IMG/VR virus record: IMGVR_UViG_3300034170_000010
Span: 1-25,443 of that record
DNA length: 25,443 nucleotides
Direction: 5' to 3' (one strand)
Origin: a virus
The position numbers and the translations under genes are program-made. The notes below the pieces were generated by a model. It saw only the letters and a program-made list of their open reading frames with translations, made no database searches and had not been told where the DNA came from. Shown in pieces: positions 3,868 through 24,830 of this stretch (its first letter is position 1; the number at the start of each line of letters is the position of its first letter).

Positions 3868-4107
3868 ATGTTTAAATCTATTTATTACTTCTTATACTCT
3901 TTCTTCTTTGTAAGAAAAGAAGTTATCTATACTACCCAGATTGAGGTAGTTAAGGTGGAGGTACTAAGTCAGAATGCTTACAACCGACTGGTCAAGCAAT
4001 TGGAACCTCCAGTTGTCTCGGCCAGCGACACGGCACACACGACCGGGTACAAGCTCGGTATCCAGCGCTCTCTGACCTTGATTCAGAAAGACTTCACGCA
4101 CGGTTGA
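3868..4107 (+). CDS. Small AT-rich hypothetical protein, 79 aa, N-terminal hydrophobic segment
   Basis: Start ATG 3868 follows AGAGGAAT at good spacing, 21 bases after the putative transcription start of promoter copy 1. An upstream in-frame ATG at 3820 lies inside the polymerase gene and would translate the promoter, so I rejected it. The product begins MFKSIYYFLYSFFFVRKEV, an aromatic-rich hydrophobic stretch (residues 4-15) followed by basic residues and a polar C-terminal half. It may be membrane-associated, but the segment is short for a full transmembrane helix. The first 100 bases are clearly AT-rich compared with neighbours. Promoter repeats flank it on both sides. It should be strongly transcribed. 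Function unknown. Confidence 0.75.
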   Translation: MFKSIYYFLYSFFFVRKEVIYTTQIEVVKVEVLSQNAYNRLVKQLEPPVVSASDTAHTTGYKLGIQRSLTLIQKDFTHG

Positions 4108-4129
4108 ATCAATTGGGCACCTATAACTA
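4107..4129 (+). promoter_or_regulatory. Variant copy of the phage promoter motif lacking the +1 G
   Basis: AATCAATTGGGCACCTATA is identical to the other copies through -1, but the following base is deleted: the sequence reads ...CTATAACTAGGAG instead of ...CTATAGACTAC. The first A of the motif is the last base of the preceding gene's TGA. It overlaps the AGGAG ribosome-binding site of the next gene. It could be a weaker promoter starting with A, or a decayed one. Confidence 0.55.
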
Positions 4130-4139
4130 GGAGAACATT

Positions 4140-4625
4140 ATGTGGGCGGTTAGCTGGATCAATGGCGAATTGGAACCATGCCTGTGGAAAGACCACCAGC
4201 AGCGGATTCTGATCGTCGGGGAGCTGGAACACCTCAAGGAGAAGTATGAGGAAGCCACCGGTTGGGAGTGCGTCGATCCTCTGACCTACTTCCAAGAGAT
4301 CGAGCACGGCTCCCTGTTCGTCTTCGTGGATCATAAGGTACTGTGCCTGAACGAGGTCCGCCCCGGATTCAGCAAGGAGAGAATCCTAGCTGAGGAATTC
4401 GTCGGGCAAGGGATCGACACAGAGACAGTGGTTGCGGTCTGCCGAAAGGTGTGCGCCACCATCGGCCTCAAGCGATTCGTTGTCGGCACCCGAGCACCCG
4501 CCAATGGGCGGATAGCCGGACTGGCCAAGATGTATCAGCGTCAGGGCCTATCCGTATCGACAATCGAACTGATGGGAGAAGTACATGAGCAGCAAAAAGA
4601 TCCGCAAGGTGGTGGCCAAGTTTGA
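4140..4625 (+). CDS. Hypothetical protein, 161 aa (weak GNAT-like appearance)
   Basis: ATG 4140 is preceded by AGGAG at 6 bases. The product (MWAVSWINGELEPCLWKDH...) is a soluble alpha/beta protein. Residues of about 60-110 form a beta-rich stretch (GSLFVFVDHKVLCLNEV), then helices and a C-terminal block KRFVVGTRAPANGRIAGLAKMYQRQGLSV. This pattern of strand, helix, then late strand and helix recalls small GNAT-like phage proteins such as T7 gp13, but I see no clear acetyl-CoA loop, so the resemblance is weak. The C-terminal tail overlaps the next gene by 41 bases. Its place before the gp7.3-like gene suggests a virion or assembly role. Confidence 0.75.
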   Translation: MWAVSWINGELEPCLWKDHQQRILIVGELEHLKEKYEEATGWECVDPLTYFQEIEHGSLFVFVDHKVLCLNEVRPGFSKERILAEEFVGQGIDTETVVAVCRKVCATIGLKRFVVGTRAPANGRIAGLAKMYQRQGLSVSTIELMGEVHEQQKDPQGGGQV

Positions 4626-5007
4626 CCTTGGGCATCAGGTAGGCAAGAAGCTTGGCCTGCCCGATCCGTCCGGCGATCTGTTCTATGGCAGCGATAAGGC
4701 ACTGAGCCCCGCTGAGCAGGCGCAGAAGAACGCACTGGACATGGCCAAGCAGCAGGCACAACAGGCAGAGCAGGCAGCAGCGGCACAGTTGGCAGCCAGT
4801 AACGAGGTTGCACAGCAGTCAGCGCAGCAGGTCCAGCTCAATCAAGACCGCGAGGTTGCAACCGCTCAGGCGGTAGAGGCTGGCAAGGTATCCACCGAGC
4901 GCCCGACGGTGCAGTTGGAGTCTGACATTCAGCCAGTCACCACTGCCCGCAAGAAGTTCCGTGGCTCCGGCACTAGCACCAAGACAGCAGCGAGTGTGCG
5001 TGTATGA
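4585..5007 (+). CDS. T7 gp7.3-like virion/tail assembly protein
   Basis: This 140-aa protein starts MSSKKIRKVVAKFDLG and ends ARKKFRGSGTSTKTAASVRV. T7 gp7.3 has the same architecture: a basic N-terminus rich in KK/VVK, a Gln/Ala-rich middle and a basic, Ser/Gly-rich C-terminus, and it too lies just before the portal gene. Residues of about 50-95 are strongly Gln/Ala rich and probably helical (QAQQAEQAAAAQLAAS). In T7, gp7.3 is a small virion protein needed for tail assembly or adsorption. ATG 4585 has GGAG upstream and sits inside the preceding gene. Its TGA overlaps the ATG of the portal (ATGA at 5004-5007). The family link rests on composition, ends and synteny rather than long identity. 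Confidence 0.75.
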   Translation: MSSKKIRKVVAKFDLGHQVGKKLGLPDPSGDLFYGSDKALSPAEQAQKNALDMAKQQAQQAEQAAAAQLAASNEVAQQSAQQVQLNQDREVATAQAVEAGKVSTERPTVQLESDIQPVTTARKKFRGSGTSTKTAASVRV

Positions 5008-6554
5008 TGGATGCAGATAAAGTCTGCGGCAAGTCCATCTGGGATAGCATGACAATGGACCGAGAGACGATGATGTCTCGCAAGGAACGGTTGTCAGAAG
5101 TAACGATCCCGAGCACTCTGCCGGACAAGAACTATCAAGTGAAGAACGAGTCGCTAACTCATGGCGCGACATCGTTGGGTGCCCAAGGCGCGATCAACAT
5201 CGTGAACAAGCTGATGCTGGCTATGTTCGCACCGGGCGTGAGCTTCATGCGCTTGGAACTGGCCGCTGCCGAGAAAGCCCGCTTCATCGAGCAACTGCAA
5301 TTGAAAGACGACAGCCTGCTGACAGACGTTCTGGCAGAAGGCGAGCGTGAGGCACTGCGGGTACTGGAGCAATCCGGTTCCCGGCCTGCGCTGTACGAGG
5401 GCTTATCGGCTTTGGTATGTGTCGGCGATGTGCTGATGGACCTCAGTGACAAAGACATCATCAGCTTTATTAGCCTGCGAGATTATGCCGTGGAGCGTAA
5501 TCGAAAGGGCCAAGTCCTGCGACTTGTGTTCCGCGAAATCACTCGGGTCCAAGACCTTGAGGATGAAGCGGAGAAGGAGTACCGCCGTGCGGTGCCTACC
5601 TGCAAGCCGCGTGATAAGGTCACGGTCTATACGACTGTCAGGTTTACTCGTGGCATGTACCGTTCTACAATCTATGTCGAAGACGTTGAACTGTCTGCGC
5701 GACATAGCGGCAAGTGGAAGACTGAGAACATGCCTTACCGGGCATTGACTTGGCGCTTGCCACTGGGTCAGGACTACGGCGTAAGTTTGGCTGAGGACTA
5801 CAGCAATGACCTCGGTACTCACGACATCGTGTCTGACTCGATGGCGGATGGTGCGGTACTTGCGTCGCAGTTCCGATGGGCATGCAACCCCGGTGGGCTT
5901 ACGCAGCCGGAGGATGTGACCAACGGTAAGAACGGCGACGTGATCCCGGCTGACCCGAAAGACCTGTCATTGGTATTCGCTAACATGGGCAACCAGTTGG
6001 CCACTATCATGCAGATCGAAGAGGTCTATGCCCGGCGCATTGGTCGTGGCTTCTTGATGAACAGCGCCGTAACCCGTGACAGCGAGCGAACTACCGCTGA
6101 GGAAGTGCGCATTCAGGCTATGGAACTTGAGCAGTCGCTCGGCGGTGTCTATTCCAGACTCGCTATCGACATGCAGGCACCTATCGCCAGATGGCAACTC
6201 CGCGCTGCGAACATCAACATCCGTGGCACCAAGATCCAGCCTACTATCATCACCGGTCTGGATGCACTGAGCCGTTCGGCTGAGCTGCAACGACTGATGG
6301 GCTTCATCGGCGACGTGGCAACACTGGCCGGTATCCCGGAAGAGACGCGGGAAATGATTAACGAGGAGCCGATTATCTCGGACATGGCAGCAGGCCGAGG
6401 CGTCAACCGCACCAAGTACGTTGCAACCGCTGACGTTGTGAACCAACGACGGCAGCAGCGAGAACAGGCTGCGGCAAACCAACAAGCAGTGCAGGCCGGT
6501 GTTGAGGCCGGGGCACAGCAACAAGTCAATCAAGCACAAGGGGCAGCACAATGA
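5004..6554 (+). CDS. Portal (head-tail connector) protein
   Basis: This 516-aa protein should form the dodecameric ring at the packaging vertex through which the terminase pumps DNA and to which the tail joins (T7 gp8 is 536 aa). It contains the podovirus connector hallmark near the N-terminus, SLTHGATSLGAQGAINIVNKLMLAMFAPGVSFMRL, followed by the alpha/beta wing and stem regions. The C-terminus (about 481-516) is Gln/Ala rich, as in relatives. The start is ATGATG at 5004/5007, overlapping the previous stop with no strong ribosome-binding site, so translation is probably coupled. Its TGA overlaps the scaffold ATG (6551). Position between the gp7.3-like gene and scaffold matches T7 and phiKMV. 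Confidence 0.95.
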   Translation: MMDADKVCGKSIWDSMTMDRETMMSRKERLSEVTIPSTLPDKNYQVKNESLTHGATSLGAQGAINIVNKLMLAMFAPGVSFMRLELAAAEKARFIEQLQLKDDSLLTDVLAEGEREALRVLEQSGSRPALYEGLSALVCVGDVLMDLSDKDIISFISLRDYAVERNRKGQVLRLVFREITRVQDLEDEAEKEYRRAVPTCKPRDKVTVYTTVRFTRGMYRSTIYVEDVELSARHSGKWKTENMPYRALTWRLPLGQDYGVSLAEDYSNDLGTHDIVSDSMADGAVLASQFRWACNPGGLTQPEDVTNGKNGDVIPADPKDLSLVFANMGNQLATIMQIEEVYARRIGRGFLMNSAVTRDSERTTAEEVRIQAMELEQSLGGVYSRLAIDMQAPIARWQLRAANINIRGTKIQPTIITGLDALSRSAELQRLMGFIGDVATLAGIPEETREMINEEPIISDMAAGRGVNRTKYVATADVVNQRRQQREQAAANQQAVQAGVEAGAQQQVNQAQGAAQ

Positions 6555-18214: not shown

Positions 18215-18225
18215 GAACCATTAAT

Positions 18226-18241
18226 GGGGCCTCCGGGCCCC
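18226..18241 (+). promoter_or_regulatory. 5' leader hairpin with UCCG loop before tail fibre
   Basis: GGGGCC (18226-18231), loop TCCG and GGCCCC (18236-18241) form a 6-bp all-GC stem with a UNCG-type tetraloop, starting 17 bases after the putative +1. It ends 16 bases before the fibre ATG; AGGA and a short T-run (18249-18253) lie between. Such a leader hairpin could stabilise the mRNA; with the T-run it might also act as a weak attenuator. Confidence 0.65.
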
Positions 18242-18257
18242 TATAGGATTTTTACGC

Positions 18258-20627
18258 ATGCCGACAACCTACTACGCAACCAACATCTTCGCAGCAGATG
18301 GCATCAAGACGGAGTGGGATTTCTCCTTCGCCGGTGTCGATGATGCCTCCGCACTGGAGGGTATCGTCCCGTATCTGTACCCCGAGGACGTTAAAGCCGC
18401 CGAAGTCTACTTCGATGTGGATGGCGCGGTAGTAACCGTACCACGTACCGTCGAACTGACTGGCCCGAACAAGGCCAAGATCGTCGGTCTGCCAATTGCG
18501 GCGGGCCACACGGTAAAGATCTACCGACAGACCGAGATTCGCTTCCCACTGGTCAACTATCGTGACCGGCAGAGCGTCAGTGAGCTGGATCTGGACTTGG
18601 CCAACCGCCAAGCCATCTTCATCGCACAGGAAACGCTGGACGTGTCCGCCGATAACTTCGGTCTGGACGCGTTGGGCAACTTCGACGCCAAGGATCACCG
18701 CATTATCAATGTGGCTGACGGCGTGGACGACAAGGATGCAGTCAATCTTGGTCAGGTCCAAGCATGGCGCACGACTTTCGAGTTGAACTGGCGCTTCCTT
18801 GAGCCTACCGATGGCCCGCAGCCTACAGTCCGCGACAACGGTGAGCCGCTGGAAACTGGCGATCAGTGGATGGACCGGATCACCGGCATCGTCTACAACC
18901 GCCGTGCTGGTGTGTGGGAACCGAGCAACGTGGATGCTCTCGCATTGGCAGGGCCGGGCGGCTCCGGCACAGTTGGGTACACCGACAGCTCTGCTGTGGT
19001 ATCCACCGTGCAAGAAGGCATCCGTGCCGTCGAGGCGCGCATCGCTGCCACTGAGGGTGATGTCACTGGGATCGAAGCTGCAATCGCTGCCCTACAGGCC
19101 GTGAATGCTGCCAACGTGACCAACCGCGCATCGCCGCTGATGTCCCGTTCGCACATGGTCATCACATCGCAACACCTCATGAACGTGCTAGGTGACTCGA
19201 TCTCCGCAGTAGCGTACTCCGGCAATGCCTACTCCAACGGCTACGTCTCCCTGCTCGCCAAGGCTGTCAACGGCGCGTTCGGTGCACGCAACCTCGGTGC
19301 CATTCCAATGGACCCGATGGACAATGCTGACCCGGCCTACAAGACTCTGCAACTCCACACCGTAACGTACAGCGGCAACTGGGGCACTCGTGCTGCCGGT
19401 GTATCGCCGTTCGACTTCCCGGTTGGCCTACAGGGCTCGGCTGCTGGCGATGCCATCAATGGCAAGACCTTCCAGTCCAGCACTTCCGGTGCGTACTTCG
19501 AAATCGAAGTGCCGTCTATGAACACTCTGGCCTTCATCTATTATGTCGGCCGACCGGGCGGCGGTCAGTTCAACGTGACTGTCAATGGCGGCGCCCCTGT
19601 GGTGCTGGACACTGCATCTGCGACACTGACCTACAACAAGACGTACCCGATCAACTGCGCCGACAACGGCCAAGGCATCAGCACCATTCGCCTGACCAAG
19701 ATCGACAACCTCCCAACCGAGGTGCAGTCGGTGGTCCGCTACCAGAAGGCCAACACTCCGGCAGCCGAGCACTTCCAGCTCGCCAACGTGTGCAACTTCT
19801 CGGTGAGTGGTCGTCAGATGGTGTCGTTGACTGAGGCAGGGATCGCTGCTGCTGCAAGCTGTGCCTGCTTGGTCGTGCCTCTTGGCTACAACGACCTCGC
19901 CGCAGAGACGAACGACATCTACTACACCAACCTGCTGACTCGTGTGAACTGGATCATCCAGTACGCCAATCAGACGCAGTGCCTCGTGGTAGTGCCGGAC
20001 TTCTGCTGGTACAGCGCCCCGACTTCTCGGGTCCGCACTCAGCTCAAGCGCATCGCCGTGGAAACCAATGGTATCTACATCGGCTTCCCGGACAAGCTCA
20101 AGCCTAACGGCGCCATACCGACTGATCCGTTCCCAACGGCGAGTGAGCTGGTATCCGTGCTGCGCCTGTTCGCAGACAATGCTCACCCGAACTACAAAGG
20201 CAATGAGTGGATCTTCCACCACATCGCCCTTGCTCTCGGACTGGACATCACGTCTCGCCGTGCTGCGCTGTTGCAGGATATGCCTTTCGCTCTGCGCTTG
20301 CAGGGCACGCTCAAGAACATTGGTGGCCAGATCTCCTCGATCTCGCGTATCCCTAATGGGTACATGTACAGCCTCTCTGTTGCTGCTGACACTACGGGCA
20401 CCAACATTGCGCCAGTAGGCTCAGTGCCGGTTGCTGCCGTACCGTCCCGCTTCCAGCCGGTTGTCTCCGGTCGCTACACTCCGTACCCTACTGCCTACTC
20501 CCTCACCGGTGTTGCCAATAGCTACGTCACTGTTGGTGCCTTCGGCGCTGGCGGTGCTGTGAACGGTACTGTGGTCGCTGCATCGCAAATCAACGGTACG
20601 TTCGTCGTACTCGACTATCTGGAATAA
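18258..20627 (+). CDS. Tail fibre / receptor-binding protein with SGNH (GDSL-like) hydrolase domain
   Basis: The 789-aa protein has three parts. Residues 1 to about 130 are the T7 gp17-type N-terminal tail-attachment domain (TTYYATNIFAADGIKTEWDF..., VYFDVDGAVV, KIYRQTEIRFPLVNYRDRQSV..LDLANRQAIFIAQE). A linker with KDHRIINVADGVDDKDAVNLGQV and a short coiled coil (about 250-284) follows. Residues of about 305-665 carry the SGNH blocks: block I VLGDSIS (Ser314), block II NFSVSG (Gly518), block III PLGYND (Asn545) and block V DNAHPN (Asp640, His643). Between blocks I and II lies an insert of about 150 residues that looks beta-rich and may bind sugar. The C-terminus is a beta-rich tip. SGNH enzymes deacetylate or cleave esters, so the fibre probably de-esterifies an O-acetylated surface glycan. 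AGGA precedes ATG 18258 by 9 bases; a promoter and leader hairpin lie just upstream. Confidence 0.92.
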   Translation: MPTTYYATNIFAADGIKTEWDFSFAGVDDASALEGIVPYLYPEDVKAAEVYFDVDGAVVTVPRTVELTGPNKAKIVGLPIAAGHTVKIYRQTEIRFPLVNYRDRQSVSELDLDLANRQAIFIAQETLDVSADNFGLDALGNFDAKDHRIINVADGVDDKDAVNLGQVQAWRTTFELNWRFLEPTDGPQPTVRDNGEPLETGDQWMDRITGIVYNRRAGVWEPSNVDALALAGPGGSGTVGYTDSSAVVSTVQEGIRAVEARIAATEGDVTGIEAAIAALQAVNAANVTNRASPLMSRSHMVITSQHLMNVLGDSISAVAYSGNAYSNGYVSLLAKAVNGAFGARNLGAIPMDPMDNADPAYKTLQLHTVTYSGNWGTRAAGVSPFDFPVGLQGSAAGDAINGKTFQSSTSGAYFEIEVPSMNTLAFIYYVGRPGGGQFNVTVNGGAPVVLDTASATLTYNKTYPINCADNGQGISTIRLTKIDNLPTEVQSVVRYQKANTPAAEHFQLANVCNFSVSGRQMVSLTEAGIAAAASCACLVVPLGYNDLAAETNDIYYTNLLTRVNWIIQYANQTQCLVVVPDFCWYSAPTSRVRTQLKRIAVETNGIYIGFPDKLKPNGAIPTDPFPTASELVSVLRLFADNAHPNYKGNEWIFHHIALALGLDITSRRAALLQDMPFALRLQGTLKNIGGQISSISRIPNGYMYSLSVAADTTGTNIAPVGSVPVAAVPSRFQPVVSGRYTPYPTAYSLTGVANSYVTVGAFGAGGAVNGTVVAASQINGTFVVLDYLE

Positions 20628-20646
20628 CCTTTAAGGAAGGACCACA

Positions 20647-20823
20647 ATGGACTCCAACTCCCGCGCCATGACCATCTTCGCTTCCGCTCAAGGCGCGGCA
20701 GTTGGTTTGTACAACGGCCTGATCGACGTTCTGCCCGTAGCCATCTTGCTGATGTCTGCGGTGCTGACTGGGCTACAGCTCTACGTCTTTGTACGTGACA
20801 AGTTCATCAACAAGAAGGATTAA
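20647..20823 (+). CDS. Holin (T7 gp17.5-like / pinholin-like), 58 aa
   Basis: ATG 20647 follows a strong AAGGAAGG site 6 bases upstream. The protein MDSNSRAMTIFASAQGAAVG... has a weakly hydrophobic N-terminal helix (about 9-24), a strong membrane helix (about 27-49, LIDVLPVAILLMSAVLTGLQL) and a short basic tail RDKFINKKD, a common holin layout. T7 has its holin (gp17.5, 67 aa) at the same place between fibre and small terminase. A SAR endolysin in this phage means only depolarisation is needed, so a pinholin is plausible. A second Met at residue 8 could give a dual start, but it has no ribosome-binding site. Confidence 0.8.
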   Translation: MDSNSRAMTIFASAQGAAVGLYNGLIDVLPVAILLMSAVLTGLQLYVFVRDKFINKKD

Positions 20824-22900: not shown

Positions 22901-23458
22901 ATGCAAGTTACTACTCTGTTGAATCCGGGCCAGAACCCTTTGGCACAAACCATCCGCCGCGAAGTGGCGCGTATTATCTCCCAACTGGAGGGTGCCGACG
23001 TTCTGGGTACTCCTGAGGCGCTGTTCGCAGCCTTCCTCGCGGATGCTGCATCCAAGACTCCGGGCTACGCCGGTCCTGTACTGCCAGCTACTCAGGTAGT
23101 CGTATCCAACGCAGGCTCGGTGCCTGTCAAGAACAGCGCCGGTAGCAAGACCGTCACCGGCACTGCAACCGTAGCCGCTGGCGTGCTGACTGGCGTGGGC
23201 CTCGCTGCTACTGAGGCAATCGTCTCCAACGCACAGGGCGGCATCGCTGTCACCAACTCCGCAGCAGTGGCCATTCCCGGCACTCACACCGCTCGCGTAG
23301 CTGCTGGCTTGGTGACTCGCGTCGATCTCGCAGCTACCGTTGGTACTGTCGTGCAGGGCGTCAAGCAATCGGGCTGGACCGTCACTGGCACCGGCACCTT
23401 CTTCACCCCAACCGTGGTTGCTGGTGTTTGCACTGGCGGCGTGCTGTCTGCTTCCTAA
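22901..23458 (+). CDS. Unknown repeat-built beta protein, 185 aa (possible virion decoration or spike)
   Basis: AGGAG lies 7 bases before ATG 22901. Residues 1-55 are helical (QTIRREVARIISQLEGADVLGTPEALFAAFLADAAS). From about 62 there are three imperfect repeats of about 40 residues: VVVSNAGSVPVKNSAG..VTGTATVAAGVLTGVGLAAT, IVSNAQGGIAVTNSAA..IPGTHTARVAAGLVTRVDLAAT and VVQGVKQSGWTVTGTGTF..TVVAGVCTGGVLS. The repeats are Thr/Val/Gly/Ala rich and should form beta strands. This is typical of virion surface proteins (decoration or head fibre), but I recognise no family. It lies between large terminase and the lysis cassette. The endolysin start overlaps its stop (TAATG). Confidence 0.75.
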   Translation: MQVTTLLNPGQNPLAQTIRREVARIISQLEGADVLGTPEALFAAFLADAASKTPGYAGPVLPATQVVVSNAGSVPVKNSAGSKTVTGTATVAAGVLTGVGLAATEAIVSNAQGGIAVTNSAAVAIPGTHTARVAAGLVTRVDLAATVGTVVQGVKQSGWTVTGTGTFFTPTVVAGVCTGGVLSAS

Positions 23459-24221: not shown

Positions 24222-24318
24222 TCCCTCGACGGACCACGGCGTTTACAGAGCCCTCCTTGCCTATGAGCAGGAGATCGACACATGCAACGCCCTGAATGGG
24301 CAAGAGGTAACACAATGA
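24085..24318 (+). CDS. Rz1: Rz1-like outer-membrane lipoprotein spanin, nested in Rz
   Basis: The 77-aa frame starts inside Rz (out of frame) and has a lipoprotein signal: hydrophobic LLLLRLLIVGLLVLSMTS before Cys28, then CAVVPSAPSWTPC with prolines. Acylation of Cys28 would anchor the mature 50-residue protein in the outer membrane. The lipobox MTSC is slightly off consensus. It extends 97 bases past the Rz stop and ends in an ATGA overlap with the next gene. The nested layout is the classical Rz/Rz1 pattern. No strong ribosome-binding site is visible. Confidence 0.83.
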   Translation: MPHLSYVFGLLLLRLLIVGLLVLSMTSCAVVPSAPSWTPCQHPLIDPSTDHGVYRALLAYEQEIDTCNALNGQEVTQ

Positions 24319-24830
24319 ACGGATACAACGGTCGTACCAACCAACCCGAGCGTATTTACTCTCTCGGCGGCGCTCTGATGACTACTGACCAGACTCGCGG
24401 CTTCGTAGAGAAACGTCAGTTTCGTGCGTACAAAGAGTTCACTGCGCTTACCGTCATCAAGATGGTCTTCGCTAAGCCCTTCTACCTGACTGCACAGAGT
24501 CTCTGGACCGGTCAAGGTGCTGCTCGCCTCGTTGTAAGTACAGGTGGTGTGGAAGGCGGGACGTTCGTCACTATGCCTACTAAGTTCTGCAAGTGGTTAC
24601 TGGATGGCGCTATCGCTGGCAACACTCTCGTGACTACTGGCGGCACCGTGACCATCGTTAACGAACGTGAAGTACTGCGTGCTGACTCTGGAACTACCGG
24701 TGGCGGTGCGGGTAACGGTACTGAACTGTCCGGCAGACGCGCATTACCTGCTGGTACTTACTACTTCACCATCACTCCTACCGGGACTACCTCCGGGATG
24801 TACTCTCTGGAGTGGGAAGAGTTCGTTTAA
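24315..24830 (+). CDS. Unknown beta-rich protein, 171 aa, last gene (possible virion protein)
   Basis: ATG 24315 overlaps the Rz1 TGA and has AGAGG 7 bases upstream. The product MNGYNGRTNQPERIYSLGG... has an early helix-like region (RGFVEKRQFRAYKEF), then many beta strands with Thr/Gly turns (LTAQSLWTGQGAARLVVSTGGVEGGTFV, NTLVTTGGTVTIVNERE, AGTYYFTITPTGTTSG) and ends SLEWEEFV. I recognise no family. Beta-rich, Thr/Gly-rich composition and right-end position in a late operon suggest a virion decoration, head-fibre or adhesion protein, but this is speculation. A hairpin follows its stop. Confidence 0.75.
   Translation: MNGYNGRTNQPERIYSLGGALMTTDQTRGFVEKRQFRAYKEFTALTVIKMVFAKPFYLTAQSLWTGQGAARLVVSTGGVEGGTFVTMPTKFCKWLLDGAIAGNTLVTTGGTVTIVNEREVLRADSGTTGGGAGNGTELSGRRALPAGTYYFTITPTGTTSGMYSLEWEEFV

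Follow-up and report, generated by a model that had tools for sequence, protein, structure and literature searches.

Does the tail fibre of this T7-like virus end in an active enzyme, and, if so, which substrate would that enzyme meet at the cell surface? The fibre gene consists of a single 789-codon open frame on the forward strand (18258–20627) of the window, by which we mean the whole analysed stretch of 25,443 nucleotides. The first-pass annotation had read its product from the letters as a fibre with a T7 gp17-type N-terminus and an SGNH esterase domain carrying a large insert. Our analysis makes it highly probable that the tip of this fibre is an SGNH serine esterase with a CBM35-like insert that deacetylates a surface polysaccharide of the host.

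Gene neighbourhood, anchor and exchange of the fibre tip

The virus record (25.4 kb) follows a T7-like late gene order, comprising RNA polymerase, scaffold, capsid, tail and internal virion proteins, fibre, terminase and endolysin. The nearest annotated relative of the fibre region is Pseudomonas phage VSW-3 (Napahaivirus; P. fluorescens), in which the fibre gene is likewise flanked by genes for internal virion proteins and for terminase. Identity to VSW-3 is 71% and 81% in the internal virion proteins and 86% in the terminase subunits. By analogy with VSW-3, our single guide to the host, a Pseudomonas-type host is likely.

The first 170 residues of the 789-aa product (18258–18767, forward strand, as for all features described below) form a virion-attachment domain of the T7 gp17 type. 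Pfam family PF03906 (Phage_T7_tail) matches aa 46–168 with an E value of 3e-18, a YadA_stalk match follows at aa 148–169, and T7 gp17 (7boz) and related fibres in the PDB match the same N-terminus. The anchor proposed in the first-pass annotation is thereby borne out. The fibre is presumably homotrimeric, to which the YadA_stalk match and a weak coiled-coil match point indirectly. A linker (aa 171–290; 18768–19127), delimited by the domain matches and the comparison with VSW-3, precedes the enzyme region and includes a probable coiled coil, to which a weak match was obtained at aa 245–291.

The VSW-3 fibre (VSW3_27) shares both the gene neighbourhood and the anchor, which is 64% identical over aa 4–240, and protein similarity ends at aa 240. 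At the DNA level, similarity to VSW-3 breaks off at position 18875 and restarts at 20642, a gap which indicates that the whole tip was exchanged in one piece. The C-terminal part of VSW3_27 is pectate-lyase-like (PF12708), whereas that of the window protein is SGNH esterase-like. Judged by this sequence comparison, the fibre tip is a swappable cassette.

Other features were observed in the vicinity of the fibre gene. Directly before its likely ribosome-binding site, a GC-rich hairpin, GGGGCCTCCGGGCCCC, occupies positions 18225–18257, and a similar hairpin, GCGGCCTCCGGGCCGC, stands at the corresponding place before the fibre gene of VSW-3; this element is perhaps a processing or termination signal. 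Between the fibre and the terminase small subunit, at about 20634–20790, lies a short frame that encodes a hydrophobic stretch (MDSNSRAMTIFASAQGAAVGLYNGLIDVLPVAILLMSAVLTGLQLYVF...), a possible holin, where VSW-3 has a 58-aa ORF. Elsewhere in the window, positions 22901–23458, 24282–24830 and 4140–5007 encode conserved phage proteins whose function is unassigned in PHROGs (phrog_9732, phrog_13935, phrog_19910, phrog_9212).

Catalytic blocks and their conservation

Based on the AlphaFold2 model and structure matches described below, the SGNH core is divided into two parts, the first with block I (aa 306–383; 19173–19406) and the second with blocks II, III and V (aa 511–665; 19788–20252). The four motifs named in the first-pass annotation, GDS (aa 312–314), NFSVSG (Gly518), GYND (aa 543–546) and DNAHPN (aa 640–645), lie exactly at the residues first assigned to them and in SGNH order. 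The interval between blocks I and II, originally put at about 200 residues, is 204 residues when counted from Ser314 to Gly518. In these blocks, Ser314 (19197–19199) is the predicted nucleophile, Gly518 (19809–19811) and Asn545 (19890–19892) are the predicted oxyanion-hole residues, and Asp640 (20175–20177) and His643 (20184–20186) are the predicted triad acid and catalytic base, respectively.

The residue alignment comprised 14 full-length enzyme domains, the window protein included, from different phages and tail types and from secreted proteins. The equivalents of Ser314, Gly518, Asn545 and His643 are unchanged in all 14, which places the protein in the SGNH superfamily by its conserved Ser, Gly, Asn and His in blocks I, II, III and V. 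Block spacing is also kept, with 180–204 residues from S to G, 27–28 from G to N and 91–105 from N to H. The Asp640 equivalent is replaced by Asn in three of the domains, those of Pseudomonas phage UFJF_PfDIW6 and loci L006 and L008. Judging from the alignment, these relatives may work with a Ser-His dyad or an altered triad, the third triad member being dispensable or replaced there. Within the PfDIW6-like group (L002, L006, L008), block V was found to read NDLHPN, with an Asp one position later than the Asp640 equivalent.

Family searches gave a similar picture at the level of the group. The PHROGs family phrog_15518, listed there as of unknown function, matches aa 230–672 with an E value of 2e-50, and Pfam Lipase_GDSL_2 matches 12 of the 15 members of the wider alignment A4 (best E 2e-11). 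Searched by itself, the window protein misses the Pfam GDSL cut-off (E 0.12), and the NCBIfam search returned no family for it. The phrog_15518 match, the invariance of the four residues and the Lipase_GDSL_2 matches together put the motif set beyond chance.

Since this invariance extends across different tail types and secreted proteins, it indicates selection for catalysis. It thus speaks against an SGNH fold that is catalytically idle and acts as a lectin-like receptor binder, with recognition left to the CBM-like insert. Such a binder appears improbable to us, even though the fibre does contain a domain of the sugar-binding type, Asp640 is replaced in three relatives and the active site of a CE2 esterase is described as having an additional non-catalytic binding function (PMC2661963). 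In the catalytic esterase that we favour, Ser314 would be activated by His643 and Asp640, and Gly518 and Asn545 would form the oxyanion hole.

Conservation differs along the tip. Mean identity to the window protein is 31% and 36% in the two core parts, 24% in the insert and 16% in the beta-rich C-terminal region (aa 672–789; 20271–20624), which is the least conserved stretch and is modelled with low confidence. This last region is a possible trimerisation or receptor-binding tip. The greater variability of the insert and the C-terminal region relative to the core fits roles in specificity, and these two regions would be expected to set the preference for particular sugars.

Predicted fold, inserted domain and known counterparts

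The AlphaFold2 model of aa 286–789, built from 15 sequences, has a mean pLDDT of 73 and a pTM of 0.78, with some low-confidence stretches and values of about 83–96 around the conserved blocks. It contains a three-layer alpha/beta/alpha SGNH core, to which many SGNH structures align at Z 13–16 over 165–190 core residues, and about eight beta strands at aa 403–495 (19464–19742) that split the two core parts. The SGNH fold anticipated from the motifs was thereby recovered by structure prediction and comparison, with carbohydrate O-acetylesterases as the nearest hydrolases among the matches listed.

The peptidoglycan O-acetylesterase Ape1 tops the fold matches listed (Foldseek, VIA-align 2), with 4k3u at Z 23.4 over 308 residues (3.6 A, 11% identity) and two further Ape1 structures, 8gld and 8gkd, at Z 23.1 and 23.0. 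These alignments span model positions 5–380, corresponding to aa 290–665, and Ape1 is the sole match among those listed that covers core and insert jointly. The non-Ape1 structures listed reach Z 16.3 or less with 165–190 residues aligned, the size of the SGNH core. Placed indirectly, by alignment-end arithmetic, His643 (model 358) falls on Ape1 His369, and Ser314 (model 29) and His643 fall on the catalytic residues Ser10 and His157 of TesA.

In Ape1 itself, the catalytic residues are Ser80, Gly236, Asn268, Asp366 and His369, and residues 104–221 form a CBM35-like domain (PMC6174289), which a review places inside the SGNH domain (PMC9487903). As in Ape1 of Neisseria and Campylobacter, a CBM35-like domain separates block I from block II in the SGNH core of the window protein. 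Ape1 is a cellular periplasmic enzyme without a fibre anchor, whereas the window module is encoded within a virion tail fibre gene. For this reason, the modelled enzyme is classed as Ape1-like in its domain plan and not as Ape1 itself.

The fold matches listed also include TesA and PatB, and lipases, thioesterases and, with PatB, an acetyltransferase are found among SGNH proteins. It would nevertheless be quite improbable that the window enzyme is an esterase or acyltransferase with a different substrate, such as one acting on a non-acetyl ester or transferring acetyl groups instead of removing them, as TesA and PatB fit the core only (Z 16.3 or less) and the insert and domain plan fit carbohydrate O-acetylesterases. 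Least probable of all, and very improbable, is an enzyme that targets peptidoglycan and helps cell wall penetration: Ape1, the one listed match that spans core and insert, does act on peptidoglycan, but its identity to the window enzyme is only about 11%, the module forms the outermost part of the fibre, Aristophanes gp41, likewise modelled on Ape1, deacetylates capsule (PMC8471582), and the virus has an endolysin-domain internal virion protein (phrog_342) for the wall.

The insert was also modelled alone (aa 384–500), with an AlphaFold2 pLDDT of 78. This model has a beta-sandwich fold of the CBM35 type and aligns with CBM35, CBM36 and CBM6 modules at VIA-align Z 9–12; CBM35 structures score Z 10–12, with CBM36 and CBM6 within about 1–2 Z units, and the exact family among the three is not separated by Z. 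The CBM of the mannan esterase CEX (6hfz) reaches Z 12.1 and the insert of C. jejuni Ape1 Z 9.8, while the top row is held by the glycosyl hydrolase 3nqh at Z 13.3. With phmmer, 7qiu and 3fi7 gave weak matches to the insert region. Binary-toxin components (Foldseek) and EphA7 (VIA-align) resembled the insert as well and were set aside as generic beta sandwiches. The suggestion that the beta-rich insert could be a carbohydrate-binding module is supported at the fold level, and we describe it as a predicted sugar-binding domain with a CBM35-type fold.

Several phage enzymes provide proven points of comparison. Gp41 of the Acinetobacter phage Aristophanes (QNO11465; Autographiviridae) combines a T7-like N-terminus with a C-terminal half that its authors modelled on Ape1 (4K7J), and NMR demonstrated that it takes an O-acetyl group off the K26 capsule (PMC8471582). 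It shares the long spacing between blocks I and II with the window enzyme, differs in its block I (GTS instead of GDS) and has no overall sequence similarity to it (BLASTP E 0.5, with a weak match in the insert only). Gp63.1 of Escherichia phage G7C, cited as a proven deacetylase in PMC13123978, is likewise an SGNH esterase in a tail protein, and its motifs in blocks II, III and V are similar. Unlike the window fibre, it has a Tail_spike_N anchor and a gap of only about 70 residues from block I to block II, and its galactose-binding-like domain (aa 514–665) comes after the SGNH core, whereas the beta domain of the window protein is inserted within it. In Pfam, the G7C_GBD and G7C_C domains are present in gp63.1 and none was found in the window protein. 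Gp63.1 had been expected as the nearest structure and is not among the matches listed; its sequence has no insert between blocks I and II. Possum gp66 is a further proven deacetylase (PMC9569702).

Comparable arrangements occur more widely. In CE20 carbohydrate esterases, a beta-sandwich ancillary domain is inserted into the SGNH core and shapes the active site (PMC12313940), and the window protein also has a beta-sandwich domain inside its core. CE20 enzymes differ in their GQSNM-type block I, DxH block V and flanking beta-sandwich domains, and no CE20 structure is among the matches listed for the model of aa 286–789. SGNH tips on T7 anchors are described for the T7-like Pectobacterium phages Q19, PP47 and PP81 (PMC7693777), and Klebsiella prophages commonly carry SGNH tips, two of which have been confirmed as esterases (PMC13123978). 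The esterase reading is well supported because the predicted fold, the conserved catalytic residues and the experimentally proven counterparts (Aristophanes gp41, G7C gp63.1 and Possum gp66) agree, and the initial view of the fibre as probably an enzyme is strengthened by this modelling and analogy.

Relatives of the enzyme module and its proposed role

Through tblastn against phage records, the enzyme part was found in only three other phages, represented by four records: Vibrio phage Valp1 (32% identity), Pseudomonas phage UFJF_PfDIW6 (31%) and Vibrio phage 209E38-1 (27%). Profile-guided scans of IMG/VR yielded thirteen loci; alignment profiles were needed, as a single-sequence search of the same collection gave zero relatives. 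The plasmid collection yielded none. In bacterial genomes, the first scan gave no match and the second a single contig (L019, uncultured Shewanella), to which the 395 genomes of its order added a single hit that fell in the N-terminal portion of the family profile. The anchors ahead of the enzyme domain are T7-type in the window, tail-collar-type in Valp1 (phrog_1780) and phrog_1640-type in PfDIW6, L014 and L017, and other N-termini were observed in L003, L009, L011, L015 and L016. With such differing anchors, the enzyme domain behaves as a transferable cassette.

Two relatives, L007 (ORF 3938–5230) and L019 (ORF 3875–5185), encode the module as a stand-alone, secreted-type protein whose N-terminus bears a twin-arginine-like signal and whose tail is GlyGly-CTERM-like; NCBIfam gave weak TAT-signal and GlyGly-CTERM matches, each in one alignment member. 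The L007 gene lies in a prophage, where its neighbours are helicase-loader and Q-like antitermination genes to one side and genes for an integrase and a small terminase to the other, and a second copy of the module was not found in that record. The Shewanella gene is located between transposase-like genes. Both secreted proteins are possible factors of lysogenic conversion or superinfection exclusion. A broader proposal, which we hold only tentatively and consider unlikely, is that the Ape1-like module is a mobile cassette with two uses: fibre-tip deacetylation at entry in unrelated phages, and a secreted, surface-anchored prophage protein that strips those acetyl groups from the lysogen and blocks rival phages.

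For the window fibre, the most likely course is that, at adsorption, it binds an O-acetylated polysaccharide on the surface of a Pseudomonas-like host. LPS, exopolysaccharide and alginate-like glycans, the examples given in the first-pass annotation, are candidate substrates between which these data make no choice. Acetyl groups would then be taken off without cleavage of the chain, and this deacetylation would aid virion binding and movement towards the outer membrane.

Deacetylating phage tail proteins are already known, and the window fibre is a further, well-supported and ordinary example that leaves the general picture unchanged. For phrog_15518, a tail-protein family of unknown function, the analysis provides a predicted fold together with a likely active site, and the family joins the tail enzymes of phages with a probable role in polysaccharide deacetylation. 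Additionally, the comparison with VSW-3 documents a clear exchange of tips in a pair of closely related phages of the Pseudomonas type, with a lyase-like and an esterase tip on the same anchor. These results are of use for annotation and host-range work, and the secreted, prophage-borne relatives offer the testable idea that lysogens may remove phage receptors from their own surface.
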